A program made the position numbers and the translations under genes. From Thermofilum uzonense (GTDB taxonomy: Archaea; Thermoproteota; Thermoprotei; Thermofilales; Thermofilaceae), in assembly GCF_000993805.1 (NCBI RefSeq), contig NZ_CP009961.1:1388453-1452452 (forward strand): 64,000 nt of DNA, written 5' to 3'. Position 1 is the first letter of the stretch, and the number at the start of each line of letters is the position of its first letter. Shown piece after piece: positions 1 through 46,520 of the stretch. The notes under the pieces are model-generated. The model searched no databases and was not told the origin of the DNA. It was given only the letters and a program-made list of their open reading frames with translations.

Positions 1-2
1 CT

Positions 3-1127: not shown

Positions 1128-1133
1128 CGAGGC

Positions 1134-1454: not shown

Positions 1455-1758
1455 CGCCGTTGTGGCTATGGCAGTGGCTGTGGGGGGCACCCTGCTACTA
1501 CTCGCGCTCTACGCGAGGCTTTACAGTGCATACGCCGGCGCTCTCGACTGCTACGCTGCGGCGCAGCGAGTAGCCAAGAACGCGTCGCTCTACGCCTCCA
1601 ACCCCCTCGCCTACACGCCACCGCGGGGGTTGAGGGTGACGTTCTACTACTCAAACGGGACCGTCGTGGCCAGGGGCTCGGCGTCGAGGTCCCGGTGCTA
1701 CGCCTACGCCCTCGCGAACGCGGGCGGGGTGGTCGTCCTTGTCAGGGTCGACGGGTAG
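1438..1758 (+). CDS. pilin-like single-TM protein
   Basis: 106 residues from the ATG at 1438, which lies inside the end of the previous gene. After a short Arg-containing N-terminus (MRVRVDAVV) there is one hydrophobic helix (about residues 8-30), then a small external domain with two Cys and N-glycosylation sequons (NAS, NGT). A short positive N-terminus, one hydrophobic helix and a compact glycosylated domain is the plan of archaeal type IV pilins and pseudopilins. The usual class III cleavage site (K/R-G) is not obvious. It overlaps the next gene by 20 bp. Called by architecture only. Confidence 0.55.
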   Translation: MRVRVDAVVAMAVAVGGTLLLLALYARLYSAYAGALDCYAAAQRVAKNASLYASNPLAYTPPRGLRVTFYYSNGTVVARGSASRSRCYAYALANAGGVVVLVRVDG

Positions 1759-2992: not shown

Positions 2993-3001
2993 CCCCCGCA
3001 A

Positions 3002-3019
3002 AGTTAAGTATATGTTATA
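3002..3019 (+). promoter_or_regulatory. TATA-box promoter for the InlB-repeat surface protein
   Basis: A TAAGTATATG-type AT-rich element interrupts a very GC-rich region about 25-30 bp ahead of the ATG at 3040. That spacing fits an archaeal BoxA driving a leaderless transcript. Confidence 0.45.
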
Positions 3020-3039
3020 GTGTGTCGCGTTTTTTCTTG

Positions 3040-4428: not shown

Positions 4429-4439
4429 GGGGCTGAGTG

Positions 4440-4451
4440 ATAAATAAATAC
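4440..4451 (+). promoter_or_regulatory. TATA-box promoter for the 903-residue surface protein
   Basis: ATAAATAAATA about 25-35 bp upstream of the ATG at 4475, with no ribosome-binding site between. This looks like a strong BoxA with a leaderless start. Confidence 0.5.
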
Positions 4452-4474
4452 TGGCTGTTTCTCTCATTTACTCG

Positions 4475-7186
4475 ATGAGGCTAGCATTCGTAGGGCTATT
4501 CGTAGGGCTAGCGCTCCTAGCAGCCACTCTCTCAGCGGCGCTCGCCGCGGCGTCGCCCGACCTCGTCAGCGTCTCCTGTCCCAACGGCAGCAAGGGCTAC
4601 GTCGCCTACGACCTCAACCTGATATGGATCTCGTACGTGCCCCGAAACGAGATAAGGGAGAGGTACGGGAGCATCCGGCCCGGCGTCTACCTGCGGAACT
4701 TCACCTGGAACTCGACGCTGTGGTACGCGGTCTGGAGGCGCTATGCCACGTACCTGTCGTACCCGTCTGGGGCCTCGTGGGACGCGTGGTATCGCATGAA
4801 CTACACTGTCCAGTTCAGCTTCGACGTCAAGCTGGTCAACAGGACCGCGGGAGGATCGCTGAAGCCCACGTGGTACGTCAACCGGAGCGGCACGATGAAG
4901 GGCTACGTAGTGTATGGGGGCGGTATCGGAGGCACCCTCTTCGAGGACTACGTGGTGAAGGCTGGGGGGGCAGTGGCGAATGTGACCGTGTACAACTGGA
5001 CCGTGTGGCTGCAGGTCTACGGGGGGCAGAGCGGCCTCGACTACTTCGGTGTCTCTGCTTACACATACCTCGACGCAGCTTGCTTCGCGGAGGCCGGCGG
5101 CGGTGGCGGCGGAGGAGGGGGGCAGGGCGTCACCCTGACCACGAAGGTCGACGGGTGCGCGGAGATAGACCCCAAGCCTGGAACCTACACGTACTCGAAG
5201 GGCTCCACCGTCACGGTGAAGGGTAGGGCGCAGAGCGGGGCCGCGTGGCAGGGGATGCACGTGCTGTGGGAGGGGAGCACGCAGTGGGAGTGGCTGAGCT
5301 GCACCTGGCAGGACGGGTGGTGCGTCGCCACGCTGACGCTCGACAAGAGCGCCACCGTCGAGGCGAGCGCTTCGTGCCCGCCGAAAGGCGCGGAGGCCTG
5401 GCTAGTCCTGACGGCCCCCTTCTCCACCACGGTGAAGGCCACGATCACCGACCCTGAGGGCAACACGTTCACGACCCTGCTCCCCGTAGACCCGAGCGGC
5501 TGGGTCATCGGGTACTCCAGATCCCCCCCCGACCCGACTGAGACGTATCAGTGCTACAAGAAGACGTGGAGCGTGGTGCTGGAGCCGAGCGGCTTCGCCT
5601 CTGCGGTCTACACGGTGCAGAGGTACTGGTGGGACGGCTCCCTCGACGGCTACCCCGACCCTTCGCGGCTCACGGGCGGTAGGCTCACCGTGAACGTGGA
5701 GATGGGGAAGTGCATGGCGGGGAACCACGTGGTGTACAGCTACGCCGTCTTCAGGTTCAGCAACGGGACTACGACCACCTCGACGTGCAGCGACACGACC
5801 TGGTGGTCGGGGTGCCGCTACTACGCGCCGAAGGACCGCGTACACATCTCCCCCACGCCACAGACGCAAACCCGGCTCGTGGGCCTTGAGCGGCTTGGCA
5901 CGCTGTTCCTGCCGGGTGAGGCGATAGCGTCGCCTCTCTTCAACTCGAGCTGGGGCTGGGCTGGGGACTGGGCGATCCGCGCCGACCCCCTGCATTCTTG
6001 TGGCGAGTACGTCGTGGCGCACCTGTACGGCGTTGGTAGCGGGCGTGACTTCTACGTGTCCCTAGGCAGGGACGTGCGGCAGCTCAACGTCACGCTGCCC
6101 GTGAACTGGAGCAGGGGTGGGGCGAGGTACGTGAAGGGCAGCGTCATGGTGATCCCGAGGAATACTACGGAGCTTTCAATGTACTTCCCCAGGGTGGTGG
6201 GGGGCGTGCCGGGCCTCCCGCAGGACACCTACTACCTCATCGGGTTGGCGGCGTGGGACCCGTACAAGTCGCCCCTGGCAGCAGGGCTCGGCGTCGGCAG
6301 GGGTAGCTGGGACACGGGCTGCTGGCTAGGCAACGGGACTACGCTGGCGGTCTACAACCTCACGTACACCTACACCTTCAAGAACGGCACCATGGTGGTC
6401 TTCCTCCAGCCCGTAGTAGTATCCGCTTTGAAGGTCAAGGACGTCCAGGCCAGATACGTGGTCGGCAGCTTCGACGCGGAGAGGCAGCACAGGCCGATCC
6501 TCGCAACGCTCACCGCCGAGATCACCTGGGCGTACCTCCCGAGCCTGAGCGACTCGCAGAAGCTAGGCATCAAGCTCCACCCGCCCAGGCAGGAGCTCAC
6601 AGCTGCACTGGTGGTCGCCGGCAGGCCCCTGCTAGTCGCGGGCAATAGGAGCGAGAGCGGTAACAGCTTGTTCTTCACCTTCAGCTTCGACGCTGAACGG
6701 CTGGTCGAGGCGCTGGACTGGAGGCTCACGCCCGCGAGGCTCGAGGCGTGGTGGCTCGGCGCCTACGGGCAGCCCCTGGGTCCCGTGGAGCAGCAGCAAG
6801 CAATGGACCTCTACATCGTGCCGGCGATGGCCTACCCCCTCGAGTGGCGGGAAGGCGACGGCTTCACGCTCAGGGCACAGCTCCTCGCGTGGCTGAACAG
6901 GAGCACGCCCCTGGACATGCCCGTGGGCTACGTGAACGCGTGGGTCGAGTTCTACAACATCGTGGGCGGCCAGCCCCTCACCCAGTACAATGGAGTATTG
7001 TATGGGCCGTATGGCTCGAGCGGGACCGAGGTTAGCGTCAACGTGAACCTGCAGGGGAGCAAGGGACTCGCTGTGGGCATGTACGTGGTGCCGATGGACT
7101 ACTCCCTCGCGGGTAAGCGCTACGCCTGGGGCAACCTGCCCGCGCTGATAGCGCCCTTACCCGCGGTCTACCCGCCACGCTCATAA
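4475..7186 (+). CDS. large secreted surface glycoprotein
   Basis: 903 residues. A signal peptide is clear (hydrophobic core about residues 4-25, cleavage near AAA-S). Residues about 30-205 form a Tyr/Trp-rich beta domain with many N-x-S/T sequons, followed by an eight-glycine linker (about 208-215). Residues about 217-300 are one InlB-B-like repeat, and the rest is a long beta-rich ectodomain with dispersed sequons and Cys pairs. No C-terminal TM helix is visible, so it is released or held by other surface proteins. It stands between a TATA promoter and another promoter (7191), so it may be transcribed alone and abundantly. I do not recognise the C-terminal ~600 residues as a known family; an S-layer-like or adhesin role is inference. 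Confidence 0.65.
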   Translation: MRLAFVGLFVGLALLAATLSAALAAASPDLVSVSCPNGSKGYVAYDLNLIWISYVPRNEIRERYGSIRPGVYLRNFTWNSTLWYAVWRRYATYLSYPSGASWDAWYRMNYTVQFSFDVKLVNRTAGGSLKPTWYVNRSGTMKGYVVYGGGIGGTLFEDYVVKAGGAVANVTVYNWTVWLQVYGGQSGLDYFGVSAYTYLDAACFAEAGGGGGGGGGQGVTLTTKVDGCAEIDPKPGTYTYSKGSTVTVKGRAQSGAAWQGMHVLWEGSTQWEWLSCTWQDGWCVATLTLDKSATVEASASCPPKGAEAWLVLTAPFSTTVKATITDPEGNTFTTLLPVDPSGWVIGYSRSPPDPTETYQCYKKTWSVVLEPSGFASAVYTVQRYWWDGSLDGYPDPSRLTGGRLTVNVEMGKCMAGNHVVYSYAVFRFSNGTTTTSTCSDTTWWSGCRYYAPKDRVHISPTPQTQTRLVGLERLGTLFLPGEAIASPLFNSSWGWAGDWAIRADPLHSCGEYVVAHLYGVGSGRDFYVSLGRDVRQLNVTLPVNWSRGGARYVKGSVMVIPRNTTELSMYFPRVVGGVPGLPQDTYYLIGLAAWDPYKSPLAAGLGVGRGSWDTGCWLGNGTTLAVYNLTYTYTFKNGTMVVFLQPVVVSALKVKDVQARYVVGSFDAERQHRPILATLTAEITWAYLPSLSDSQKLGIKLHPPRQELTAALVVAGRPLLVAGNRSESGNSLFFTFSFDAERLVEALDWRLTPARLEAWWLGAYGQPLGPVEQQQAMDLYIVPAMAYPLEWREGDGFTLRAQLLAWLNRSTPLDMPVGYVNAWVEFYNIVGGQPLTQYNGVLYGPYGSSGTEVSVNVNLQGSKGLAVGMYVVPMDYSLAGKRYAWGNLPALIAPLPAVYPPRS

Positions 7187-7190
7187 GGGT

Positions 7191-7203
7191 GAAAAATAAA
7201 TAT
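7191..7203 (+). promoter_or_regulatory. TATA-box promoter inside the apparent 5' end of the next ORF
   Basis: AAAAATAAATATTTC immediately follows the stop of the 903-residue gene, 22-34 bp before an in-frame GTG at 7225. It argues that the codons between 7189 and 7225 are promoter, not coding. Confidence 0.5.
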
Positions 7204-7224
7204 TTCTTTACCCTTCTACCCATC

Positions 7225-7770
7225 GTGGATCTCAGGATAGTATTGCTTGTATTGGCGCTAGCAGTGGCTTCCACGCTTGCCCTGTACGCGTACCGCTCCT
7301 CCGTGCTGAGTAGCAAGCCCCTCCCCGGCTACGAGGCTGCCCTCGCTGTGAGGGACGCCCTAACGGCCGGCAGGCTCTCGGGCTTAGAGGTCCACGTCTC
7401 CCAGGTGCCGATGCTGTTGAACATCACCGTGGACGGTAGGGAGTACGTCGTCCAGGCAAGCAGGGTGCTGGTCTGCTTCAGGGCTAGGGGCGCGCCCGTC
7501 TACGAGGAGCCCTCGGCGAGGCCTTGGCGCTCCTGGGGCAACGGTACTCATGCTGGTGCAGTGAGCTGGATTGGGGTGCGTGACGACGGCTCCACTGTTC
7601 ATGTATACTTTTATTCCGCAAGCATTACAGGGAAGGCTTCAAGCCTATGCGTGTCCTCGCAGGGCAACGCCGTGCTCACACTCGCGTCTAAGCAGGGATG
7701 CGTATCGGGTTATTGCTGGAGCGGAGCAAGGAGCTTGATTGTGCTAAGGCGCGTCGTCGGCTCTTGTTGA
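7225..7770 (+). CDS. pilin-like single-TM protein
   Basis: 181 residues from the GTG at 7225, chosen because the preceding codons are the AT-rich BoxA. It begins MDLRIVLL, then one hydrophobic helix (about residues 4-22), then a mostly beta external domain with one early sequon (NIT) and four to five Cys in the C-terminal half. It resembles the minor pilins and pseudopilins that follow. No class III signal-peptide cleavage motif is obvious. Function is inferred from architecture and position. Confidence 0.55.
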   Translation: MDLRIVLLVLALAVASTLALYAYRSSVLSSKPLPGYEAALAVRDALTAGRLSGLEVHVSQVPMLLNITVDGREYVVQASRVLVCFRARGAPVYEEPSARPWRSWGNGTHAGAVSWIGVRDDGSTVHVYFYSASITGKASSLCVSSQGNAVLTLASKQGCVSGYCWSGARSLIVLRRVVGSC

Positions 7771-7811
7771 CGCGTGGAAATGTTTAATTATTCCCAGCGG
7801 TTTTAACGCTT

Positions 7812-8105
7812 GTGATTGACGAGGCTATAATAGTTTTAGCCGAGGCGGTATTTCTCGCAGGGCTACTTATCCTCGCGTCACGTTTATGGCTTTTCCACGG
7901 AGATCCCTACCCTATGCTCGTAGCAAAGGCGGTGAACGCTAGTGCCAGCGATGCGGAGACAATGATAGTTTTGCCTAAGCCTGTACACTGCGAGGCGTGG
8001 AAGGTGTGCTACGCGGGGCAGTGCTACCCTGCAAGCCTCTCAGGCTTCACCGGTTCATCCTGGAATTACATAATCGTGGATAGGGGGTACGGGGTGGGAG
8101 GGTGA
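7812..8105 (+). CDS. pilin-like single-TM protein
   Basis: 97 residues from a GTG start. A TTTAATTATT element about 25-30 bp upstream suggests its own leaderless promoter. N-terminal hydrophobic helix at about residues 6-27, then a small domain with one sequon (NAS) and three Cys in a tight C-x7-C-x4-C pattern. It overlaps the next gene by 4 bp. Second member of the ladder of short single-helix proteins. Confidence 0.55.
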   Translation: MIDEAIIVLAEAVFLAGLLILASRLWLFHGDPYPMLVAKAVNASASDAETMIVLPKPVHCEAWKVCYAGQCYPASLSGFTGSSWNYIIVDRGYGVGG

Positions 8106-8413
8106 GGCACCTCGAAGCCCTGGCCATCGCATCCGTGGTGGCGGTGACAGCCACACTGCTGTACAGGCTCTACGTGAGCCAGGTATACCCGGTGCACCAG
8201 GTCGGCGCGCAGAGGGCCTTAGCCTTCGCGCTGCTCAAGTGCCAGTCGCTCGAGTGCTTCCTCAACGCTACCAGGGAAACTGTCCCTGTTCAAGCCATCT
8301 ATGTTGACGGAGTGCTCGTGGCGGGCTCTCTCGGGGGGCCCTCCCAGTGCTACGCCGTAGTCGTGGTGAACGCTACACAATACCACGTGGTGAGGGTGTG
8401 TGCGAAGGCGTAG
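8102..8413 (+). CDS. pilin-like single-TM protein
   Basis: 103 residues, GTG start overlapping the previous stop. Hydrophobic helix at about residues 5-24, then a compact domain with two sequons (NAT twice) and four Cys. Its size and plan match its neighbours. The end overlaps the next gene by 14 bp, so translation is coupled. Confidence 0.55.
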   Translation: MRHLEALAIASVVAVTATLLYRLYVSQVYPVHQVGAQRALAFALLKCQSLECFLNATRETVPVQAIYVDGVLVAGSLGGPSQCYAVVVVNATQYHVVRVCAKA

Positions 8414-9023
8414 GGGCCAGCTCGCACTGCTGGGAGTCATAGTGTTAAGCGTGACGCTGCTAGCCTTGGCCAGCATGGTCCCGGTGGAGCCAATATACGC
8501 GTACGAGAGGGGGCATATGCAGTGCGCGCAGCTCGTCCACGTCGCTAGGGCCTGCCTAGCCTCGGGGAGGTGCACGAACGAGACGCTGCAGGAGCTTGTC
8601 TCGAGAGTATTAGCGGTGAACGCGACGGAGCCCATGCTGATGTACCCCGTGCTCCAGTATACGAGGTATGAGGTGTCGAGCTGGAGCGTGGCGAACAGGA
8701 CCGTGTTCACGATTAAGACGCTGAGGGCGTCCTCGGAGAGCGTAGAGGTCTATGTGCTCGCGGCGAGCTATCCGTATTCTGGAAAATACAGGAAGTTCTG
8801 GCTGGGCAAGGAGTGGACGCTGTACAACCTGACCCTGTGGTACATGCACAGCTATGCCTCTCCGTTCTTCAACGTCCCCCAGCTGTGCCCGCGCATCTAC
8901 GACCCCTCCGGCCTCGCGGACGTGAAGCCCCTGGAGCAATGCCTCTGGAGGGTCGGGGTGCCGGGCAACTACACCCTGAGGGACGAGTTCGGTATCCCCG
9001 TCAGGGTGGTGGTGCGTGGATAG
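8400..9023 (+). CDS. pilin-like single-TM protein with larger external domain
   Basis: 207 residues, GTG start. The N-terminus RRRRGQLALL is a cluster of Arg directly before a hydrophobic helix (about residues 8-28), the closest thing in this ladder to a type IV pilin leader. The external domain has Cys residues and several sequons (NET, NAT, NRT, NLT, NYT). Overlapped at both ends by neighbours. A larger or minor pilin is likely; unproven. Confidence 0.55.
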   Translation: MRRRRGQLALLGVIVLSVTLLALASMVPVEPIYAYERGHMQCAQLVHVARACLASGRCTNETLQELVSRVLAVNATEPMLMYPVLQYTRYEVSSWSVANRTVFTIKTLRASSESVEVYVLAASYPYSGKYRKFWLGKEWTLYNLTLWYMHSYASPFFNVPQLCPRIYDPSGLADVKPLEQCLWRVGVPGNYTLRDEFGIPVRVVVRG

Positions 9024-9345
9024 GCTTATCGCGGGCCTAGCCTTCATCATAGCGCTGGGCGCGGCGTTGGCTGTGTTCAGGCCCCCCAGCCCCGACCGCT
9101 GCAGCGACGCCCGGCGCCTAGCAAGGGACGTTCAAGCCGCGCTGCACGGCGCCGTGGTCGAGGGAGTGTACTACCTACCCCCAACAACTGTGAACGCTAC
9201 CGGTTTATACTGCTGGGAGTGCCTCGCCGCCGCAAGGGTAGCGACGGCGAACAGCACCACACTGCAGGGAAGGGTCCGTCTCCTGGTGTACTCCGACCGG
9301 TCTGGCAGTGAGGCAGTGGTAATTTTTAAATACTCTAAACAGTAA
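9016..9345 (+). CDS. pilin-like single-TM protein
   Basis: 109 residues from a GTG overlapping the previous stop. Hydrophobic helix at about residues 5-20, then a small domain with three Cys (one C-x2-C pair) and sequons (NAT, NST). Last of the five short single-TM proteins. A strong TATA element follows at its 3' end, so the next gene starts a new transcript. Confidence 0.55.
   Translation: MDRLIAGLAFIIALGAALAVFRPPSPDRCSDARRLARDVQAALHGAVVEGVYYLPPTTVNATGLYCWECLAAARVATANSTTLQGRVRLLVYSDRSGSEAVVIFKYSKQ
9323..9334 (+). promoter_or_regulatory. TATA-box promoter for the VirB2-like pilin
   Basis: TTTTTAAATACTC about 22-33 bp before the ATG at 9356. The pilin gene therefore has its own promoter, consistent with a highly expressed structural subunit. 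Confidence 0.5.
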
Positions 9346-9355
9346 TAATTATTCG

Positions 9356-9760
9356 ATGAAGAAAGCCAACTTTATTGTATTTGTTTTGATGATGAGCCTC
9401 ATAATAGCAAGGCACGCGTATGCTCAGCTCCCACAGCCGAACATACCACAGATTACGGATACGTTGAAGTTCATCGCAAGCTTCGCGTACTGGTTTGTGA
9501 TATTCACAGTGCTGATAATCATGGTTGTAAAGCTGGCCTACGGCAGGCTACAGGCGAGTACCGGTGTACCTGGAATTTCATCTAGGGGGTACACAGAGAC
9601 ATGGGAGGCTGTCTCAGGGCTGGTGTGGACGCTGATAATCCTCCTGGCAGCACCCTGGATTGCCTACATTGCGGCAAGTGCTTTAGGGCTTCCACAGGTC
9701 CCGCAGTTAATCGTGGACGTCATGACGTATATTTACACGCATAACCCCCTTAGCCCTTAA
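9356..9760 (+). CDS. VirB2/TrbC-like two-helix pilin (Ced/Ted-type)
   Basis: 134 residues. A cleavable signal peptide (about residues 1-24, ending AYAQ) precedes a short Pro-rich segment. Helix 1 is at about 39-61. A basic/Gly loop contains RGYTETWE, and helix 2 is at about 83-107. A signal peptide plus two hydrophobic helices joined by a short polar loop is the plan of VirB2/TrbC conjugative pilins. It is also that of the archaeal DNA-import pilins described as CedA1 (Sulfolobales/Aeropyrum) and TedC (Thermoproteales). The loop-helix 2 segment (RGY-x3-WE-x3-G) recurs near the N-terminus of the next protein. It is probably the main subunit of a conjugation-type pilus. The family assignment rests on architecture and remembered literature, not on a search. 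Confidence 0.6.
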   Translation: MKKANFIVFVLMMSLIIARHAYAQLPQPNIPQITDTLKFIASFAYWFVIFTVLIIMVVKLAYGRLQASTGVPGISSRGYTETWEAVSGLVWTLIILLAAPWIAYIAASALGLPQVPQLIVDVMTYIYTHNPLSP

Positions 9761-9785
9761 CATTTTTTTTCCACCGGTGTAAGTC

Positions 9786-10610
9786 TTGCTTGAGTGGCTG
9801 CTCAGCGGAGTAAACTGGTCATACATGGCACTGGCCTTCTCAGCCGTGCTTGTAGAGGCCCTCTGGGGGCTACACTTAACGCATAGCCCCGTGCCCTCCG
9901 TACGGGAGCGAGGCTACAGTTTGATATGGGAGAGCCTCGAGGGGTTCACCTTTGGAGCTCTACTGCTCCTATCCATCGCCGTATTCGAGGGCCCGATCCT
10001 GGGATGGGTGAAGGGCGTGGACGTGGCTACAGCGGAAAGGATGTGGGCGGAGGCCCAGCAGAGGCTGTCAGATTACTTGTTAAGCATAGCGTTGCTCGAG
10101 CGTGACTTATCACTGACCGTGGTTTTCAGCAGCCTCGCCGGTACAGTCGGGGCTAGCAGTATACTTGCCCGCTTCATGGCGCAATACCTGTTGTTCTTCT
10201 CGACGGCTATGCTCTTCCTGACGTATATAGTTAAAGGCTACGGCTCGCTCATGTTCAGCATAGGCATAGCCCTGGCGAGTGTTAGGCGCGTGAGGAGTAT
10301 AGGATCATACCTTGTCTTTAGTGTGATTGCTATAGTGGTGGCAAGCTGCTCTCTCGCACCCTTCGTCTACAACAGTCTTCAAAGCCTCAGGTTCAGTTAT
10401 AAGCCAGGAATAATAGACGTGCTGAGCGAGGCGTTCAAGCAGCTGTTCACAGACCGGCTACGAGACCTGATAGAGGATGGCAAGCTGTTAAGCTATATAG
10501 CTACCGTGGCAACCGTGGCGGTAGCGGTTATCACGGCGGTGGCGGCGGCGCTGTCGAGGGCTTCTGGGGGCCTGATGGACACGTTGATGTCGCGTGTAAG
10601 AGGCTTGTAA
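9786..10610 (+). CDS. polytopic membrane protein next to the VirB2-like pilin
   Basis: 274 residues with about six TM helices (about 15-30, 52-70, 108-125, 130-155, 175-200, 232-255) and a charged loop at 205-228. Residues about 38-58 (RGYSLIWESLEGF) echo the pilin's RGYTETWEAVSGL, so the first two helices may derive from a pilin-like module. The start is TTG with GGTG just upstream. In Ced/Ted loci a multi-TM channel protein (CedA) lies beside the pilin; this one, or the 1403-residue protein next to it, could fill that place. No enzymatic motif is present. Confidence 0.55.
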   Translation: MLEWLLSGVNWSYMALAFSAVLVEALWGLHLTHSPVPSVRERGYSLIWESLEGFTFGALLLLSIAVFEGPILGWVKGVDVATAERMWAEAQQRLSDYLLSIALLERDLSLTVVFSSLAGTVGASSILARFMAQYLLFFSTAMLFLTYIVKGYGSLMFSIGIALASVRRVRSIGSYLVFSVIAIVVASCSLAPFVYNSLQSLRFSYKPGIIDVLSEAFKQLFTDRLRDLIEDGKLLSYIATVATVAVAVITAVAAALSRASGGLMDTLMSRVRGL

Positions 10611-10625
10611 TTAATCTGAAATTAA

Positions 10626-10637
10626 TTATTTATTAAA
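10626..10637 (+). promoter_or_regulatory. TATA-box promoter for the 1403-residue protein
   Basis: ATTTATTAAAG about 22-33 bp before the GTG at 10659, in an AT-rich gap of 48 bp. Leaderless start inferred. Confidence 0.5.
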
Positions 10638-10658
10638 GCGTTCAACGTTTATTATAAT

Positions 10659-13600
10659 GTGGATCCAGGCCTAGCGCCTGTTATAGCGTACGTATTATTC
10701 CTACTCGAGACGCTTTACATATCATACAAGCTGTACGTGGGGGGCAGGAGGGACTACGAGGAGCGCTTCTGGTCAACCCTTGCAGCACTGGTCGTAGCCC
10801 TCCCGTTAATGTTTCTCGATGTCGCCCTGGTCGCAGGGCTTTTCGGCGTCCCAGGCAGCTACCTGGACTACAGCCTCACGCTTAGGTACGCGTACGCGGT
10901 TCAGCAGGCCGCTAACCAAACCCTGAGCGGGCTACCGAGGTGGTCAGCGTGGCTCGGCACGGGCATAGCCATAGTTGAAACGCTTGCATGGGGTGCGGCC
11001 CTAGTCAGCGGCGGGCTCAGCCTCCTGATAGGCTACGCATCGGCGGCGGGCCTCGGACTCGTCAAGGCGACGCTGGACGCGGCGACGATGAGTGCTCAGG
11101 CGATGTACGCGGTCTCACGCCTCTACGAGCTAGCCGGACTGCTGGCTCCTTACGCGAGGACGCTTGTCCCCGTCGGCCTAGCACTGGCAGTTTCCAGGAG
11201 GACGAGGCCCCTTGGAGCGGTGATTGTTGCCGTGGGCGTGTTCTTCGGCTACGCCATGCCCTTCGCTCTAAATGTTGTGGCGTGGAGGATCCAGGAGGTT
11301 CAGGCCCCCGGGGCGCCGCAAGGCGCGCTCGGAGCGGTGTGCCTCAACGTCGTCACGTGCGGCAGCGTGGGGAAGTGGGGTAACACGACGTGTGCTGGCT
11401 TTCCAGCACTTGTCGAGCTCGGGGACCTCACGCATAACAGGACAGTTGTTAGGCAGTCGGGGAGGTGCTTCGTGGATCTGGCGGGCAACTACACTGTTAG
11501 AGCCGTGTGGTTCGGCCCCCTACGTGTGAGCCCGAACGAGTCGTTGATAGCGCCTAGCGTATTCGAGGTGAAGCCCGCGGCTAGGGTGAAGCCCGGGCGC
11601 GAGGTCCCCGACGCACTCACCGGCAGGGTGCGGGACCTGAACTACACGGAGTTCAACAACGTCACGATAGTTGTGCACTGGGGGCCCGGCGGCAGGGACC
11701 GCGACGTCTTCACGATCACGTGGGTGCCGGGCCAGGGCGCGTCGTGGGTGGCTACGGACGGCTTCCACTTCCCGTGGGTCAATGTGGAGTGGAGCAGGGA
11801 GCCGTGGTTCAACGCGACGTACTTCTCGCGTGCAGACTACGTCGAGGCAAGCCTCTGGGGCGTGGGGAGGCAGAAGATGTATACGGGTAACGTCACGCTG
11901 CCGGGTAACAGGACGGTGACTGTGAACTGCACGGAGGTCGAGGCGTACGTGTACGGCACGCTCCTCGGCGACCCGCAAATAGTGGACAGGGGGTTAACCT
12001 ACATCGAGGTGAACGGGACCAGGCACTACCTGGTGCCCGAGGTAAAAGTCACCGTTAGGCGCTACCTGGGGGTCGACCCTGAGTCGTACCTATCCATGAT
12101 GCGCCGAACCATTGCCCCGTGGTTCAACCAGTCCGCACGCGTCCTCAACGCTACGCTCCGAGGCCACGTTTACCTGGAGCTGGTGAACAACACGGTGGCG
12201 AAGATGCACATCTGCCCCACGACCGGGCCCGGCTACTGGGCGAAGTGCACGACTTTCGAGAACCCCGCTTACAAGTGGGGGATACCGTACGACTTTATCC
12301 CTATTGAGTTCGCGGAGGCGAGGTACTGCGGCCACCTCGTGAGGCCCGCGAGGGTGAGGCATTGGCTAGCGCTGGACACGCATATAAGCGTCGGCGCGTC
12401 CACGGTGGCGGCCACGTTCTACGACTCGTCGCTGGAGTGGGTGGCGGAGCAAAAGCTGGAGCTCTACGAGAGGGCTAGGGGCTTCTTCATCAACGTGTAC
12501 GAGTTCATAGCCCTGCTAGGCATAACATTCGGCCTCGCGGTCGCAGGGGTTGACGCGTTGTCGGGTTTCCTCGAGGGGCCCTCGGTCACCTTCGCGTTCA
12601 TGCCGAGGGGGCTGCGTAGGAGCTACTGGAGCATCGTTGTGTCTAGGCTCCCGAGCATCGCGTCTGCACTGGCTGGGAAGGCGCTGCCGGTGCCGAGGGT
12701 CGCGTATGACGCTGCTTTAAGCGTCTACGTGGAGGCTTTGCCGCGACTGATACGGCAGCACGCGTCCACGTATCCCCTGCGGAGGCTCAAGGAGGCCTTG
12801 AGGGAGAAAGGCAGGGCCCTGCTTGCAGACGTGAGTGGCAGGCTTTCAGTAGTGGAGGAGGCCTTGAATAGGCATAAGCGGCTGTTGTCGGGCGTCAGTG
12901 CTGTAGACCGGGTGGTTAGCGCTGTTAGGGGGCTCGCGGAGGCCACCAGGCTAAGCGACGTCGCCAGGATAACCGTCACGTTTGCGAGGCTTGTATGGGA
13001 GGAACGTGACACGCATGCCGTGAATTCGTTTCTTAGAGCTGTGGCCGGGACGCTTAGAAGCGAGGCCCGCAGGATGGCTGGGGAGGTGCCCGTCCAGCTA
13101 CACCCCCGGGCTAGCGTGCTGGCGAGCATTGCGGGCAGGATAGAGTGGCTTGAGGCATTCCTAAACCCCCGGGAGCTCTACAAGCGTGCAGTGTTCATCA
13201 CGGGTATGGCGTTGTACAACACTCCACGCACCGTGGTAGGAAGGGACGCGCTCGCGGTGGCGCTTCTAGGCGTGAGGATCAGCCGTGCCATGAGCTTTAC
13301 AGGCGCGTTAGGCGTAGTGGACGTGGAGGCTAGGAGGGCTAGGGAGAGGCTTGTCGAGGCCTCTGCCAGGCTGATGTCTGGCGATGTCAAAGGGGCTGCC
13401 AGGGTTTTGGAGGATGTTGAGAGAGTTGTAAGCGGCAGGCTTCGAGTAATGGGTTTGAGCGAGGCCGAGGTTAACGCGTTAACGGCCGTGTGGAGGGCTG
13501 GCGAGGCGTTGCAGAGGGCTCTGGGCTCAGGGCTCGAGGAGGGGATGCTCAAGGAGTACGTTAGGGTGCTGGAGGAGGCCTTGAAGACGATAGTCAACCC

Positions 13601-14870
13601 GGAGGTCAAGTCGTACCTAAGGCAGGAGCTCGAGTTTCTCAGGGGGCTTGAGTGGGAGAGGTTTGTGGAGCTAAACGCTGGTCTATCGGAGCCGGAGCCG
13701 GGCTCTCTTCGAAGGGAGCTCGAGGCGTTGAGGCGTGTAGCCGAGGCTGCAGGGAGGAGTGAAGCCGCGAGGTTGTTCGAGGAGGCCGCGCGAAGGGCAG
13801 AGGTGGACGTTTGGGAGGCGCTCGCGATTGCCGGTAGGGCCCTCAACCTTATGGGGCTGCCGAGCAGCGTGGAGTCAAAGCTCGTCGAGGCGTTCAGCAC
13901 CCGGGACGCTGACAGTTTTAGAAGGCTTTTGGTGGAGGCCGCCGGGCTTTGCAGGCAACACGGGCTGGGCGAGCTCGCGGAGAGGCTTGAAAGGCTCGCA
14001 GCGGTCGAGGGGAGGGCTGCGGCGACGCCGGGCCCCTTGGAGCTCGGGGAGGCTGTCTGGGACCTGCGTGTAGTCCTTGACAGGCTTGCAAGGGGTGATT
14101 GGAGGGCTGTCAGGGACGCGGAGGACCTTCTACGAGTCCTTCAACGGGTCGGCGACGGGAGGCTCGCCAGGATACTCGAGGGCGGGCTGCTCGCCGCGGA
14201 GGGCGAGCACGTGGAGGGGAGCTGGGAGGCCGTAGGGGCGATATACGTCAGGGCGCGTCGCCAGCCGGAGCTCCAGCTCGGCGAGCTCGTGTTGAGGGGC
14301 GCGGTAGTCGAGGAGGCCGCGGCGAGCGCCATGGACGACGTAGTTAGGCTGGGGCTCGACGCCGCGGTGGAGCAGGCGAGGAGGAGGGTTTTGGAGGTAC
14401 GGGAGGATTTCGAGGTGGATTTCGCCGAGCTCGTGCTTCTCGTCTCTGCGGTGGAGGGCGAGGAGGGTGCTAGGCTGGAGGCTGAGAGTCTCCTGTGGAC
14501 GGTTGTCTCCAACCCTCCTAGCGTCGAGGCCGCCGGGAGGCTGGCTGCCTACGCGTCGAGGGTGGTCGAGAGGGAGTACAGGGAGGCGTTGGAGGCTTAC
14601 AGCCGGGCGTTGTCCCTCTCCGGGAGCCTCAACCTACACCCGGGGGAGTCCAGGGCCATGCAGGCTTTTCAGGCGGACCACGCGAGGAGGGCGTACCACG
14701 CCCTGACGGAGGCGGTCGAGGAGGTACATGCCAGCCGAACACGCATCGCCTCCCTAAGGATTTACGCGGACATCCTCCCAGAATACAGGAAGACACTCAA
14801 CGATATTGACGCGATGCTCAGAGAGCTGGAAGAACTCCGAAGCAGGATAGAAGGACTCCTAGAGGAATAG
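10659..14870 (+). CDS. giant multi-domain membrane protein, CedA/VirB6-like N-terminus
   Basis: 1403 residues in three parts. (1) Residues 1-210 contain about five hydrophobic segments, ending in a block P-V-G-L-A-L ... R ... G-A-V-I-V-A-V-G-V-F that resembles polytopic CedA/VirB6-type channels. (2) Residues about 211-605 are a beta-rich external domain with many N-x-S/T sites and several Cys. (3) A TM segment at about 607-635 is followed by ~750 residues of almost continuous charged helix (Glu/Arg/Ala/Leu), resembling a helical-repeat or coiled-coil tail in the cytoplasm. A polytopic core with a giant inserted or appended domain is known for 'extended VirB6' proteins. The stop overlaps the convergent protease gene by 12 bp. 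A decayed copy of its last ~45 residues lies at 30222-30372. Specific function unknown. Confidence 0.6.
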   Translation: MDPGLAPVIAYVLFLLETLYISYKLYVGGRRDYEERFWSTLAALVVALPLMFLDVALVAGLFGVPGSYLDYSLTLRYAYAVQQAANQTLSGLPRWSAWLGTGIAIVETLAWGAALVSGGLSLLIGYASAAGLGLVKATLDAATMSAQAMYAVSRLYELAGLLAPYARTLVPVGLALAVSRRTRPLGAVIVAVGVFFGYAMPFALNVVAWRIQEVQAPGAPQGALGAVCLNVVTCGSVGKWGNTTCAGFPALVELGDLTHNRTVVRQSGRCFVDLAGNYTVRAVWFGPLRVSPNESLIAPSVFEVKPAARVKPGREVPDALTGRVRDLNYTEFNNVTIVVHWGPGGRDRDVFTITWVPGQGASWVATDGFHFPWVNVEWSREPWFNATYFSRADYVEASLWGVGRQKMYTGNVTLPGNRTVTVNCTEVEAYVYGTLLGDPQIVDRGLTYIEVNGTRHYLVPEVKVTVRRYLGVDPESYLSMMRRTIAPWFNQSARVLNATLRGHVYLELVNNTVAKMHICPTTGPGYWAKCTTFENPAYKWGIPYDFIPIEFAEARYCGHLVRPARVRHWLALDTHISVGASTVAATFYDSSLEWVAEQKLELYERARGFFINVYEFIALLGITFGLAVAGVDALSGFLEGPSVTFAFMPRGLRRSYWSIVVSRLPSIASALAGKALPVPRVAYDAALSVYVEALPRLIRQHASTYPLRRLKEALREKGRALLADVSGRLSVVEEALNRHKRLLSGVSAVDRVVSAVRGLAEATRLSDVARITVTFARLVWEERDTHAVNSFLRAVAGTLRSEARRMAGEVPVQLHPRASVLASIAGRIEWLEAFLNPRELYKRAVFITGMALYNTPRTVVGRDALAVALLGVRISRAMSFTGALGVVDVEARRARERLVEASARLMSGDVKGAARVLEDVERVVSGRLRVMGLSEAEVNALTAVWRAGEALQRALGSGLEEGMLKEYVRVLEEALKTIVNPEVKSYLRQELEFLRGLEWERFVELNAGLSEPEPGSLRRELEALRRVAEAAGRSEAARLFEEAARRAEVDVWEALAIAGRALNLMGLPSSVESKLVEAFSTRDADSFRRLLVEAAGLCRQHGLGELAERLERLAAVEGRAAATPGPLELGEAVWDLRVVLDRLARGDWRAVRDAEDLLRVLQRVGDGRLARILEGGLLAAEGEHVEGSWEAVGAIYVRARRQPELQLGELVLRGAVVEEAAASAMDDVVRLGLDAAVEQARRRVLEVREDFEVDFAELVLLVSAVEGEEGARLEAESLLWTVVSNPPSVEAAGRLAAYASRVVEREYREALEAYSRALSLSGSLNLHPGESRAMQAFQADHARRAYHALTEAVEEVHASRTRIASLRIYADILPEYRKTLNDIDAMLRELEELRSRIEGLLEE

Positions 14871-16919
14871 GATCCTCCAGGCTATACGCGGTGGCTTTAC
14901 AGCGACACGCGTGCTCCAGGAAGGGTTGCCGTTAGCTATGAGAATAATATCGTTCAGCTGGTTCAGGGTGAAGTTTAGATCAGTGGACAGTTGAGGCTTG
15001 CTGCCGCATTGAAATTTGGAGACTCCGATGATGGAGGAGTTCACTCTAACGGTCACCTCGTATTCCACGGGATAAGCTGGACAAGACGAAGTGAATACCG
15101 TGGCGTTGACGCTCGCGAGTAACCATCTGGGCGCCACGATCTTCGGCGAGGCTGTCAGAGTTACAGTATAGCGGGGCAGGTCTACTGTCACAACTCCAAC
15201 ATAGTAAGTTGCGTACGGCACGGCAACACTGCCCGAGAAGCCGGAGATCTGAACCTGTGTCTGTAATGATAGAGGCTGTATAGTTACGCTGACAATCGTC
15301 TTGTCGCTTTCGGAGTTATACGAGGCAAGGGTCACGGCAAGCGAGGCGGGCTCCACAGGGAGGCTTGCCTCAACATTATTGGCAGGGTCTAGCTGGAGTA
15401 TAATTTTCCCAAGGGCTCTACTAATAGATCCAACAGTCTTGAATTCTATCCTTACCTCTGTGGCTCCAGGCTGCAGTGTAAGGCTCTGGGGGACGTTGGT
15501 GTACACGAGTATACTCTGGTTGTCAACCTTGGGCTCGACAACCTTCAAGAATGCTAAGACTTTGAACTTGTTGGGGTTAATCACCCTCGTGATTATGCTC
15601 CCATATGCACTGGAAGACAGGTAGAGGGGGGTCGGGGTTACGAGTTGGAGGGAGGGCTTTTCAACGCTAACGGTGATAGTGGTTTTCTCGCCAGAATACT
15701 CTATGCCGAGGGGGTAAACGCCCCAGCTCACGCCCTGTAGTGTGAGGTCCACGTAGCCCGAGGAGGCTGTGAGCATCGTCCCGTTAACTAGTACAGCACC
15801 GTCTACGGGCTTGCCTGCATAAGTTACGTAAAGTCTAAGCTGGAGGGTTCTATCTATGGGGTTAAAGACGCCATCCCTTATCTCTGCCGCAAGTGGTGGT
15901 GAGAATGTTATTGAGACTTGATAGTTCGCCTGGGAGAGACTAGGATTTACCAGGACCAAGATGAGGCTTCCGTTTGACACGTAGAAGGGCTGGTTTAATG
16001 CTAGATTGCTCCTTAGAGTCCCTGTCGTGGAGATAGTGACTAGGCCCGGTGAGGGCAAGCTGATCGTGAAGTATTTAGCACTCAAACCGTCGAGAGAGAA
16101 CTGCGTGCTCCAGCCAGAGGGGGCCAGCGTTACCTGCTGGTAGCTAGGTCGGTATGTCGTCCCGCATATTTGGACACCTTTAGCGAGTGCAATGAGAAAA
16201 CTCGTGTAGGCGGAGTTTATCCAGTCCGAGATGACCGAGCTGCCTGAAAACGATGCTGAGAAAGAGGTAGCGGCACCCGCATACCCCGACGAGATGACCC
16301 AGTTGTAGAAGGCTCCATAAGCGTAGCTCTGCGGGGCAGCGTTGCTGAAGGAGTAGGGGTTGGTGGTGTAGAGGTTGTACTGGAGGAAGTAGGAAGGCTC
16401 CCACCCGCAGATACCCGAGAGCGCCCCGGCAACCCCCTCAGCGCTGGCCTCTACGTACCATGGATAACTCTCCAGTACGTTCTTGTACTGTACATAGGCT
16501 AGCTGTGCTACGTGATTCATCTCGTGGTAAGCAGTGTGTGTTAGGACAGACTGGGATAGACCCGGAGCTATCTTTATATCCACTATACAGGTGCTCAGAA
16601 TCTTCCCAGTATTAGGGTCGTAAGAGTACTGCCATGTGGTAAGTCCAGCCTCACTACCGGAAAGGCTCTGAATGTAGACAGCGTACTTGTTACCGTTACA
16701 AGAGGACGAAAGCCCTACTCCCCGGTTGACAAGAGCTGATCGTGCAGCCTCAAATGCATTGGCAACGCTCTGTGCGTATGCTGATCCAGCGCCAGCATTG
16801 TCGTACACGTCAAAGTTCTGGGAAGAATAAGTAGGAGCAGAAAAGGATACGCGTGCCGCAAAGGCTAGGATAAGTATCAGGATTACCAGCAGGATTAGGC
16901 TTCTACCACTAAGTCCCAC
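14859..16919 (-). CDS. secreted HExxH zinc metalloprotease with beta-sandwich C-terminus
   Basis: 686 residues from a GTG start. Signal peptide at about residues 7-27. The catalytic part (about 30-270) holds HEMNH at about residue 133, an HExxH zinc site. About 25 residues later comes WYVEASAE, whose Glu is positioned as the third ligand of a gluzincin. From about 275 to the end are several beta-sandwich-like domains with many NxS/T sites, typical of extracellular substrate-binding or surface-attachment modules. It probably degrades or processes proteins outside the cell. It is convergent with, and overlaps by 12 bp, the end of the giant membrane protein gene; a BoxA-like AT-rich stretch lies about 30 bp upstream. 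The peptidase family cannot be fixed by eye. Confidence 0.65.
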   Translation of the reverse strand: MGLSGRSLILLVILILILAFAARVSFSAPTYSSQNFDVYDNAGAGSAYAQSVANAFEAARSALVNRGVGLSSSCNGNKYAVYIQSLSGSEAGLTTWQYSYDPNTGKILSTCIVDIKIAPGLSQSVLTHTAYHEMNHVAQLAYVQYKNVLESYPWYVEASAEGVAGALSGICGWEPSYFLQYNLYTTNPYSFSNAAPQSYAYGAFYNWVISSGYAGAATSFSASFSGSSVISDWINSAYTSFLIALAKGVQICGTTYRPSYQQVTLAPSGWSTQFSLDGLSAKYFTISLPSPGLVTISTTGTLRSNLALNQPFYVSNGSLILVLVNPSLSQANYQVSITFSPPLAAEIRDGVFNPIDRTLQLRLYVTYAGKPVDGAVLVNGTMLTASSGYVDLTLQGVSWGVYPLGIEYSGEKTTITVSVEKPSLQLVTPTPLYLSSSAYGSIITRVINPNKFKVLAFLKVVEPKVDNQSILVYTNVPQSLTLQPGATEVRIEFKTVGSISRALGKIILQLDPANNVEASLPVEPASLAVTLASYNSESDKTIVSVTIQPLSLQTQVQISGFSGSVAVPYATYYVGVVTVDLPRYTVTLTASPKIVAPRWLLASVNATVFTSSCPAYPVEYEVTVRVNSSIIGVSKFQCGSKPQLSTDLNFTLNQLNDIILIANGNPSWSTRVAVKPPRIAWRILFL

Positions 16920-29853: not shown

Positions 29854-29974
29854 GGGCCCGTAGCGCAGTCAGGAAGCGCGGCGGCCACGCTCCACGAGCG
29901 CCGCACTTCGGTGTATCAAAACGCTTAAAAGCGGGGACAGCCGTAGGTCCCGGGTTCGAGTCCCGGCGGGCCCG
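29854..29974 (+). tRNA. tRNA-Arg(TCG), two introns
   Basis: Acceptor GGGCCCG pairs with CGGGCCC; D-stem GCGC/GCGC; T-arm CCGGG-TTCGAGT-CCCGG; discriminator G. Anticodon stem GCGGC (29881-29885) pairs with GCCGT (29940-29944). The loop is complete only if two introns are removed: about 29887-29906 (position 32/33) and 29912-29938 (position 37/38). That leaves loop C-TTCGG-A with anticodon TCG and a 74-nt tRNA. No encoded CCA. The gene is certain; the intron borders could shift by a base. Confidence 0.82.
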
Positions 29975-30221
29975 CTATTTCTCATATTTATTCGGGAAGC
30001 TTTGCTGGCCGGCCTGCGCCACTGGGGGCTCCCCTGGTTACCCTTCTGAAGTGTTTTCTCCTGGTGGTCGTAGCTTTTGCTTCTAGTCTTTTGCTGTGGC
30101 TTTGCTGTGCGTTGTGGTGTAGGCTTTGATTTTAATCAGTGTGGGTGGGCTGTGTCCTGCCAGGTGGGCGATGTTTGTAGTGTTTACGTCTGCATTGCTT
30201 TCGGGGCCCAAGTCTTGCACA

Positions 30222-30372
30222 TGTATAGCCTCGCTGTGGATATACCCTAACGTCCTGCTAGACTACGGGAAGGCACTAAACGATATCGATGTAATGCTCG
30301 GGGGGGCTCGAAGAGTATAGGAGCAGGATTGAAGGCTTCCTCGAGGAATGGGAGGCGGAGAAGATATACTAG
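30222..30372 (+). pseudogene. decayed C-terminal remnant of a homologue of the 1403-residue membrane protein
   Basis: Read with one frameshift in a run of seven G (30296-30303 region), this stretch encodes IASLWIY ... KALNDIDVML ... EYRSRIEGFLEE. That matches the last ~45 residues of the 10659-14870 product (IASLRIY ... KTLNDIDAML ... ELRSRIEGLLEE), also at the DNA level. The rest of the gene is gone. It lies between tRNA-Arg and tRNA-Pro, a typical scar site of integration or rearrangement. The surrounding 29975-30221 holds no gene that I can support. Confidence 0.75.
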
Positions 30373-30400
30373 GGATATCGGAAGTAAAACAAGCCGATAA

Positions 30401-30512
30401 TGGGGCCGCCGGGATTTGAACCCGGGACCACCTGGGCTCCCGATGGACTGTATCCCGAGTCCCGCGGCTTAAAAGCCGTGCCAGGCATCCTACCAGGCTG
30501 GACTACGGCCCC
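30401..30512 (-). tRNA. tRNA-Pro(CGG), two introns
   Basis: On the minus strand: acceptor GGGGCCG/CGGCCCC, discriminator A, D-stem GTCC/GGAT, anticodon stem CCTGG/CCAGG, T-arm CCGGG-TTCAAAT-CCCGG. The anticodon loop needs two introns, about 30459-30479 (32/33) and 30437-30453 (37/38), giving C-TCGGG-C with anticodon CGG and a 74-nt tRNA. The discriminator A and G37 support proline. No encoded CCA. Same intron architecture as the neighbouring tRNA-Arg. Confidence 0.78.
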
Positions 30513-30620
30513 CTCAGATAGTGTTTCCACACCTTGTTTTAAAGTATTTCTCCGTCTTAATCCTGAGGGGCCGTGAAAAAATCTTTATATTATGTTGTAC
30601 ACGTAGGGTCTGAGGTTAGT

Positions 30621-31076
30621 ATGCCTACATGGCGCTATAGTGTCGAGCTTGACCCGGTGAAGACGGTTAAAGCGTCTCTACGAGATGTCAGCATGTCGTA
30701 CAAGGCTACAGTGGAGACTCTAAGACTCATCAAAGGTAAGAAGCTAAGCGAGGCTAAAAAAATCCTTGAAGAAGTAGCATCCATGAAGAAGCCGGTCCCA
30801 TACAGGAGGTTTAATGGAAAAGTAGGGCACAAGAAGGGTGTGAGCGGTCCTGGGAGGTATCCCGTCAAGGTGGCTAAGAAGCTGCTAGGCCTCCTGGAGA
30901 ACCTAGAGAACAATGCCGAGTTCAAGGGGTTAGACGTGGAGAACCTCTGGATAGTCCATGCTGCTGCCCATAAAAGCTTCAAGATAAGGAATTATCTTCC
31001 CAGGGCCTTTGGAAGGGCTACTCCCTACTACGACCAACTTGTCCACGTGGAGGTCATAGGGGAGGAGAGAGTCTAG
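30621..31076 (+). CDS. rpl22: 50S ribosomal protein uL22
   Basis: 151 residues from the ATG at 30621, chosen over upstream GTG because GAGGTTAG precedes it and the family N-terminus (PTWRYSV) starts here. Features are AKASLRDV-like early helix (VKASLRDVSMSYK), VPYRRFNGKVGHKKG, and the C-terminal ENLWIVHAAAHKSFKIRNYLPRAFGRATPYY that lines the exit tunnel. First gene of a uL22-uS3-uL29-Rpp29-uS17-uL14 operon in the canonical archaeal order. Confidence 0.93.
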   Translation: MPTWRYSVELDPVKTVKASLRDVSMSYKATVETLRLIKGKKLSEAKKILEEVASMKKPVPYRRFNGKVGHKKGVSGPGRYPVKVAKKLLGLLENLENNAEFKGLDVENLWIVHAAAHKSFKIRNYLPRAFGRATPYYDQLVHVEVIGEERV

Positions 31077-33821: not shown

Positions 33822-33945
33822 GGGCCGGTAGCTCAGCCAGGTAGAGCGGCGGTCGAATAAAACTGGTCGAAGCTCTTAACCCGTAGAGGCGCCGTGCATC
33901 TGCACGGCGTAGCGGAAGCCCCGGGTTCGAGTCCCGGCCGGCCCG
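33822..33945 (+). tRNA. tRNA-Lys(CTT), two non-canonical introns
   Basis: Acceptor GGGCCGG/CCGGCCC, discriminator G, D-stem GCTC/GAGC, T-arm CCGGG-TTCGAGT-CCCGG. The anticodon stem is completed by splicing an intron at 30/31 (about 33853-33871), joining GCGG to G-CTCTTAA-CCCGT. A second intron lies in the variable loop at 45/46 (about 33887-33917) and forms a perfect hairpin (GCCGTGCA/TGCACGGC). The mature tRNA is 74 nt with anticodon CTT. Neither intron is at the canonical 37/38 site. No encoded CCA. Confidence 0.85.
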
Positions 33946-35382: not shown

Positions 35383-35480
35383 CGCCGGGGCCGGGATTTG
35401 AACCCGGGCGCCCTTGCGGGCAATGGCTCTCCGAGGAGCTAACTCCAGGCCATCGCCTTGGACCGCTCGGCCACCCCGGC
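35383..35480 (-). tRNA. tRNA-Ser(GGA) with canonical intron
   Basis: Minus strand: acceptor GCCGGGG/CCCCGGC, discriminator G followed by encoded CCA. Anticodon stem ATGGC/GCCAT, loop C-TGGAG-A with a 14-nt intron at 37/38 (about 35429-35442), long variable arm TGCCCGCAAGGGCG. It shares acceptor, variable and T-arm sequence with the tRNA-Ser at 37738 on the opposite strand. Confidence 0.87.
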
Positions 35481-37737: not shown

Positions 37738-37841
37738 GCCGGGGTGGCCGAGCGGCCTAAGGCGGCGGACTCGAGATCCCACGATCCAAGAAATCCGTTG
37801 CCCGCAAGGGCGCCCGGGTTCAAATCCCGGCCCCGGCGCCA
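37738..37841 (+). tRNA. tRNA-Ser(CGA) with canonical intron and encoded CCA
   Basis: Acceptor GCCGGGG/CCCCGGC, G73 at 37838, then CCA (37839-37841). Anticodon stem GCGGA/TCCGT, loop C-TCGAG-A with a 17-nt intron at 37/38 (about 37776-37792), variable arm TGCCCGCAAGGGCG. It is convergent in sequence with tRNA-Ser(GGA) 2.3 kb away in inverted orientation. Confidence 0.88.
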
Positions 37842-37943
37842 AAGCTTTGCCTCGAGGATCGGTCTTTAAAGGCTCTGGCAAACCAAGTAAGTAAAGCAAA
37901 AAGCTTTAAATTGCGAAGCAACCATGAATTCCAGGCGTTAAAC

Positions 37944-38165
37944 ATGGAGGGAACAGTAGACTTGCTCGCCGAATCAGTGGGTAAAAGCGTGCTTGTCAAG
38001 CTGAAAGGTGGACGAGAGATACGGGGCACCCTTAAGAGCTTCGATTATCATTTGAATCTTATACTAGAGAACGCGGAGGAGGTGAAAGGCAACAAGACAA
38101 GACAGTATGGAACAATAATTGTCAGGGGCGACAACGTGGTTTTAATAAGCCCCGCGCCAGCCTAA
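37944..38165 (+). CDS. LSm (Sm-like archaeal) RNA-binding protein
   Basis: 73 residues from the ATG at 37944, preferred over the longer ORF because the Sm fold begins here. Sm1: SVLVKLKGGREIRGTLKSFDYHLNLILENAEE; Sm2: IIVRGDNVVLISPA. It forms a ring that binds U-rich RNA. It is paired with eL37 12 bp downstream, a conserved archaeal LSm-eL37 operon that ties it to ribosome or tRNA biology. Confidence 0.9.
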   Translation: MEGTVDLLAESVGKSVLVKLKGGREIRGTLKSFDYHLNLILENAEEVKGNKTRQYGTIIVRGDNVVLISPAPA

Positions 38166-46323: not shown

Positions 46324-46520
46324 ATGAAAGCGATTGAGTTGCTTAGAAAAGAGATTGAGGCAACACGTGTAGTAATTATGGCTGGAGGAGAGGGCAAAAG
46401 GATGGGTTACGCTGAAACACCAAAGGAGTATGGCTACCCGTAAACACCTTAAAAGAACTAGAAGAAGTAGAAAAACTGCTAAACAAAGAGATACATAAAG
46501 AAAAGGACTTAACAGCTTGA
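46324..46520 (+). pseudogene. internally deleted nucleotidyltransferase (MobA/CobY-like) remnant
   Basis: GTGGAGGT precedes an ATG (46324). The first 40 codons end in VVIMAGGEGKRMG, the nucleotide-binding start of NTP-transferase-3 proteins, then hit a stop (46441). Just after, in another frame, comes VNTLKELEEVEKLL, the typical C-terminus of the same family. The ~120 residues between are deleted. Probably once a nucleotide-sugar or cobinamide nucleotidyltransferase at the edge of the glycan island. The 46109-46323 gap holds nothing else I can support. Confidence 0.65.

Follow-up and report, generated by a model that had tools for sequence, protein, structure and literature searches.

How did the 3' end of a giant membrane protein gene come to be copied between two tRNA genes of the archaeon Thermofilum uzonense? 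The stretch in question (30222-30372) lies in a window of 64,000 nt, i.e. the whole piece of DNA analysed (contig NZ_CP009961.1, positions 1,388,453 to 1,452,452, forward strand), and the genome is this one contig of 1,611,988 bases; below, the locus, the giant gene and the listed features have window positions, and copies elsewhere have genome positions. A sequence-only reading had taken the stretch for the scar of a second giant gene. We consider it very likely that the stretch is the right half of a ~370-395-bp end-only derivative of a TnpB-type element, situated between facing tRNA 3' ends, that the short forms arose by internal deletion and were then multiplied, and that they moved most likely in the manner of IS200/IS605. 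The derivative has two modules, RE (the left module of the interval as aligned) and LE (the right module), and the deletions lie between the two. The features concerned are as follows.

10659 to 14870, forward strand: gene of the giant membrane protein (1403 aa) of a pilus/plasmid-like island; an open reading frame (ORF) with homologues of 1282-1291 aa in a conserved cluster of four family genomes.
29854 to 29975, forward strand: tRNA-Arg gene with an intron, the left neighbour, 3' end toward the element (ARAGORN with introns; orthologue in the congener G001).
30007 to 30212, reverse strand: RE module, a tnpB 3' end remnant (Zn-ribbon C-terminus) with a terminal hairpin, putatively an omegaRNA/right end (nhmmer RE match at genome 1418459-1418664; PF07282 in nine other copies of the module; the right end of a Thermofilum TnpB fits the model).
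30216 to 30381, forward strand: LE module, the giant gene 3' end including the stop codon plus ~25 nt of conserved tail, one of 39 genome places; this is the supposed scar.
30382 to 30400, forward strand: outer tail of LE, class T1, up to the tRNA-Pro 3' end, with a similar tail at seven copies, with or without a tRNA behind it.
30401 to 30512, reverse strand: tRNA-Pro gene with an intron, the right neighbour, 3' end toward the element (tRNA searches including Rfam).

With the interval 29979-30400 (422 nt) as query against the window, 30219-30353 agrees with 14739-14872, at the 3' end of the giant ORF, in 98 of 135 nt (73%, E 2e-19); the single 1-nt gap is a frameshift, and the alignment runs to the stop codon of the giant gene. 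A tblastn comparison of the giant protein with the interval gives 20 of 39 identical residues in one frame and 12 of 14 in the next (summed E 4e-8), and no significant match to the rest of the giant gene was found in the interval. The sequence-only reading was therefore right that the stretch resembles the C-terminus of the giant protein in DNA and protein with one frameshift, that nothing else of the gene remains there and that it lies between tRNA-Arg and tRNA-Pro. A conserved independent gene or RNA without likeness to the giant protein is not what we observed.

The second gene copy, however, is not borne out. The match stops at a module boundary that recurs in ~40 dispersed copies, and next to it comes a TnpB 3' end in reverse instead of giant-gene sequence. 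The remainder of the interval (about 30005-30212) is a repeat as well, and the genome has dozens of copies of each half. Against its own genome the 422-nt interval has at least 50 matches, 40 of the matches listed being at E<=2e-4 (itself included), and on this whole-genome list we rejected a second copy of the gene. Consensus searches of the genome (E<=1e-3) place LE at 39 and RE at 37 sites. None of 40 relatives, six of them congeneric, has a match to the interval, and in the literature reached by our searches no published description of the RE|LE family was found. The copies rarely touch coding sequence: among the matches listed, the ORFs of at least 150 aa overlapped on their own strand are the giant gene and two others. 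The module alignment comprises 36 segments (1200463 and 1307916 left out). The short copies 1094890 and 1200463 are 98.4% identical over 372 bp and, to judge by this, are probably among the most recent duplications of the family.

Some of these sets carry a qualification. Our first RE profile was contaminated, at least four of its 32 rows being island sequence and one more mixed, and its matches at 1402888, 987384, 1259420, 1504128 and 1576834 are artefacts. The count of 37 comes from the consensus search, whose query was emitted from that profile and whose matches exclude these five; the copies used below for tail classes, tRNA proximity and the boundary tests on 25 pairs were taken from the matches of the contaminated profile.

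The congeners speak to the same point. In G001 and G006 the orthologous tRNA-Arg/tRNA-Pro interval is 133 bp long, without the repeat and with the same downstream ORF (30573-31076, which we take to encode ribosomal protein L22), as compared with a 425-bp gap here; the other four congeners have a different gene arrangement at this site. A second giant gene or pilus island, once flanked by the tRNA genes and later lost, would agree with the real DNA likeness to the giant 3' end and with pilus-region DNA being present elsewhere, but we regard it as extremely improbable, given that the adjoining 200 bp are a TnpB 3' end found in the same order at dozens of other places, that two congeners have the interval without an insert and that, under one scoring, the window copy is closer to its best outside copy, another short one (242 bits), than to the giant gene (86.8 bits).

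The identity of RE is given by its opposite strand, which ends in the Zn-ribbon motif of TnpB. The Pfam TnpB domain (PF07282) is found at 14 genome places, five of them long TnpBs and nine RE modules; one of the long proteins, of 535 aa, is a TnpB/Cas12f relative. A Thermofilum contig encodes a TnpB whose C-terminus is 74% identical over part of the query and whose 3' end fits the RE model (E 8e-29). The stem arms of the RE hairpin in 22 copies pair better with their own partners than with re-dealt arms (187 of 20000 re-dealings were as good, with the kinship of the copies not corrected for). The hairpin set had 23 RE rows, leaving out 1267685, 1174974, 1497438 and partial copies, and the window copy (1418431) was dropped from the pairing test because its arm is truncated; one hairpin alignment was not used for pair counts, as its arms shift register. 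Among palindromes near the ends, the RE hairpin is present and partly compensated, and CCTCGAGG stands near the LE end in 15 of 25 paired copies. LE is the giant gene 3' end with a tail of ~25-40 nt. Separately, two TnpB genes (at 420674 and 1574512, the latter at the left edge of a composite copy) are 99.5% identical over 400 aa, which makes them, as far as sequence can tell, a recent duplication.

Longer copies connect the two modules to a complete element. The sizes in this one closed genome form a series of 3 kb, 1-2 kb, 540 bp, 380 bp and 220-260 bp. The two 3-kb copies (986881-989909 and 1501605-1504640; 82% identical over 3044 bp) have the order RE, tnpB (535 and 534 aa), a GC-rich leader of ~900 bp and LE, where LE is ~440 bp of the giant 3' end (90% and 93%). 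The leader is also found in the island (1370585-1371389), where an unrelated TnpB lies next to it and a 602-aa HerA-like ATPase follows. Other copies hold pieces of the island. For example, window 3187-4549 (95%) sits between RE and LE in the copy 1489336-1491569; the copies at 73.2-74.3 kb and 1575.9-1577.3 kb have the end of the 602-aa gene followed by giant-gene pieces; and those at 1346.6-1347.3 kb and 1248.7-1249.3 kb have 1377189-1377399 followed by LE. Island order and orientation are kept in all seven composite copies (7/7), and some of the island pieces in dispersed copies come from left of the window. In addition, genome 1198802-1200224 is a 99% copy of the helicase-like gene of the island (1374601-1376023), near the LE copy 1200468. 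The window segments that recur in this way are as follows.

3187 to 4549, forward strand: pilus-region segment (a 468-aa ORF and the start of the next), copied at 1489910-1491260 between RE and LE; two further matches, at 46514 and 1360094, have 3187 as their left edge too.
14434 to 14872, forward strand: 3' part of the giant gene, recurring as the long LE of the 3-kb tnpB elements.
15948 to 16128, forward strand: two adjoining pieces (15948-16047 and 16053-16128), found by sequence match at 98-99% directly outside the LE of two dispersed copies.
37838 to 37973, forward strand: piece that begins where a tRNA gene (37738-37838) has its 3' end, found by sequence match at 98.5% directly outside the LE of the 3-kb copy 1501605-1504640.

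The claim that the pilus module is mobile or multicopy thus holds in part: island pieces elsewhere between RE and LE or beside LE suggest that pilus-cluster DNA has moved around an archaeal chromosome, but not by way of a second gene copy.

Since ~3-kb and island-carrying relatives exist, the short forms are best explained by internal deletion. The junctions of the composite copies lie in several cases at short repeats, and in others have no repeat or have inserted bases. In the two 3-kb copies the deletion junction is identical, down to the base change that both carry, so a single deletion event was multiplied. The junction RE96|LE22 is common to six short copies (1084539, 1094895, 1104948, 1187337, 1200468 and 1549770), and the junction of RE with 1403024-1403035 is also common to six copies. 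It has to be considered here whether double-strand-break repair or gene conversion, rather than transposition, left the dispersed pieces as filler DNA; the mosaic structure, the microhomology at junctions, the short near-identical pieces outside LE and the want of a transposase would all fit, whereas the outer ends recur, the junctions recur at many unrelated sites and the orientation bias is strong, and we judge this explanation distinctly unlikely.

The boundaries were compared in 25 paired copies of 223-734 bp, which are too short to encode a transposase and whose ends are not exactly known. There is no target duplication in them (longest shared flank word 4.76 for own and 5.0 for crossed flanks), and no terminal inverted repeat (longest inverted shared word 5.4 on average and 5.8 when shuffled). 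The copies are oriented by chromosomal arc. Among 40 places (the 39 of LE and one at 431565), 24 are on the minus and one on the plus strand at 0.786-1.34 Mb, compared with two minus and 13 plus elsewhere (Fisher 1e-7, with arc borders picked after the data had been inspected). The best freely chosen split into two arcs misfits 3 of 40 and was equalled in 0 of 20000 sign shuffles, a test that allows for the choice of borders but treats the copies as independent. The orientation of IS200/IS605 mirrors the direction of replication, according to the part of the review consulted (PMC5371812). The lack of inverted repeats and duplications and the two-arc orientation together point to replication-coupled transposition of the IS200/IS605 type.

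tRNA genes adjoin some of the copies: of 39 LE matches, seven end 15-22 nt from the 3' end of a facing tRNA (Rfam), and one more is beside a tRNA-Leu found by ARAGORN and missed by Rfam; of 39 RE matches, two are no more than 31 nt away from a tRNA 3' end. By our own arithmetic, assuming ~50 tRNA genes, chance would give less than one such LE end even if all were intergenic. The eight cases are not eight independent events, because the two copies at tRNA-Pro genes (1174858-1175254 and the window copy) are 80.6% alike through the tRNA. If the repeats were the ends of an integrative element whose tyrosine recombinase used tRNA genes as attachment sites, the 8 of 39 LE matches that end ~15-30 nt from a facing tRNA 3' end would be accounted for; but most copies are away from tRNA genes, those near them are beside and not inside the genes, the flanks of the 25 paired copies have no direct repeat or shared words beyond chance, so that the suggested att-type repeats are not there, and the only phage-type integrase found is at 174230-174715, outside the island. 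We therefore hold such an element to be very improbable.

As to the tRNA genes themselves, ARAGORN with introns labels 29854-29975 as Ser, and the intronless orthologue in G001 is tRNA-Arg(TCG). Of five tRNA genes listed in the window (29854-29975, 30401-30512, 33822-33945, 35383-35480 and 37738-37838), several carry introns; ARAGORN by default finds one of the five and Rfam four, missing tRNA-Arg.

Where did LE come from? The giant gene belongs to an island at genome 1369319-1403322, of which window 1-14870 is the right part, with a TnpB, three HerA-type ATPases, a helicase-like ORF, a Rad51 paralogue, ParB and ParA-like domains, a secretion ATPase, and pilin-like and giant membrane proteins. 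The clusters around the giant homologues have ParA-like, secretion ATPase, membrane-protein and HerA-like genes (not every one in every fetched stretch), with the HerA-like gene directly after the giant gene there and left of it here. No giant relatives were found in PLSDB plasmids, viral contigs or GTDB contigs, and a 134-aa protein of the source cluster has no sequence match in PDB. Against a profile of the C-termini of the four homologues, the last 200 residues of the giant score 15.0 bits, compared with 9.7 for the best shuffle (4952 of 5000 shuffles were reported, all below 15.0) and 5.7 for the best of its other windows. This argues weakly that LE began as the giant gene's own 3' end. 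Conversely, LE could have belonged to the TnpB element from early on as its native end, the giant gene having gained its C-terminus by reading into an inserted copy: LE is much more numerous than the giant gene, and the C-terminal module occurs alone in another genus (G015, contig L039, 1492-1626; 64% over 42 aa, without the rest of the gene). A search of seven family genomes for a second place of this piece gave, besides the one in G015, a match of 33 nt in G012. We consider this direction unlikely, since the likeness of the giant C-terminus to those of four homologues outside the element, though weak, exceeds every shuffle, and since upstream of LE the composite copies carry additional giant-gene sequence and further island genes.

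Put together, a longer element (RE, tnpB, leader and LE, ~3 kb, besides copies with island pieces) would have acquired LE by capture of the 3' end of the giant gene of the pilus island; internal DNA lying between short direct repeats would have been deleted, leaving the short RE|LE forms, several of which would then have been multiplied; and movement would have been single-stranded and replication-coupled, by a TnpA, presumably of the IS200/IS605 type, that is absent today.

Besides the limits of the two orientation tests, the weak support for an ancestral giant C-terminus and the lone piece in G015, several observations weigh against this explanation. The LE outer ends form at least three tail classes, which leaves the true terminus uncertain (the window copy, of class T1, runs up to tRNA-Pro), and the tRNA-Arg/tRNA-Pro gap shares with the congeners no alignable sequence by which the insertion could be placed exactly. 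GC skew does not differ between the orientation arcs (24 and 26 of 59 stretches, p 0.19), and the switch points are not confirmed as origin or terminus; no Orc1/Cdc6 was recognised near 1.34 Mb by eye among ORFs of at least 300 aa, no profile search having been made. Neither the Y1 (HUH) transposase TnpA (PF01797; present in 5 of 14 control genomes) nor the serine recombinase TnpA of IS607 (PF00239; 10 of 14) has a match in this genome, so neither search gave a candidate for the mover of the family. Finally, the island has an unrelated TnpB and no RE at its left end, and its right end is without the LE tail.

This last observation bears on an attractive but unproven suggestion, that the 33-kb island was the parent transposon. 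It is possible, though doubtful, that the island (~1369.3-1403.3 kb) was itself a very large TnpB-bounded transposon, its right end being the end of its own giant gene, and that serial internal deletion turned it into ~40 end-only passengers, several at tRNA 3' ends and most with the tnpB 3' hairpin, a putative guide-RNA gene of its own that the remaining TnpBs could use. We also considered, and rejected, one element of 43.7 kb reaching from the unpaired RE at 1359608 as far as the giant 3' end: this RE is followed by its own truncated copy (with a 534-aa ORF) and then by an ORF that is presumably arginyl-tRNA synthetase.

The family shares features with known systems. The supposed scar is the LE half of an internal-deletion derivative resembling the palindrome-associated transposable elements (PATEs) of Haloquadratum walsbyi, some of which contain part of a transposon's C-terminal coding end, as stated in the part of the report consulted (PMC3119063). 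As far as that part describes PATEs, RE|LE copies are like them in having no terminal inverted repeats and no target duplication and in being too short for a transposase (25 paired copies); PATEs have ends in common with an IS605-type transposon, and RE|LE ends are common to the 3-kb tnpB elements, although no tnpA was found. They differ in that one end is formed here by the 3' coding end of a large, unrelated gene of the island, pieces of the island persist in intermediate copies, some copies abut tRNA 3' ends and the host belongs to another archaeal group. With IS200/IS605 and the IS1341-like (tnpB-only) elements the family shares a TnpB with a TNB domain, a hairpin at the tnpB 3' end, the lack of terminal inverted repeats and target site duplications, and a chromosomal orientation bias; in contrast, there is no TnpA gene in the genome, and a ~900-bp GC-rich leader with the giant-gene 3' end replaces the ordinary left end. 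Because TnpA is absent, we do not claim membership of IS200/IS605 proper. RE also resembles omegaRNA-bearing TnpB right ends, in the portion of the work consulted (PMC12558985), in having the tnpB 3' end with a hairpin directly at the outer end, the omegaRNA of RE being putative. The source cluster, with HerA-like, secretion-type and ParA-like ATPases and small membrane proteins, is reminiscent of the archaeal DNA-transfer machineries Ced and Ted, so far as the consulted sections present them (PMC9905601), but shows only Pfam ATPase and weak pilin matches.

With deletion derivatives and their intermediates side by side in one closed genome, one can follow how a cargo-bearing element was reduced to end-only repeats. 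In an archaeon, the family also ties TnpB-type mobility to a conjugation/pilus-like island. The question whether TnpB right ends on their own serve as guide RNAs becomes testable, and there is a caution as well: where a short stretch resembles the 3' end of a gene, it may be a transposon end rather than a pseudogene.
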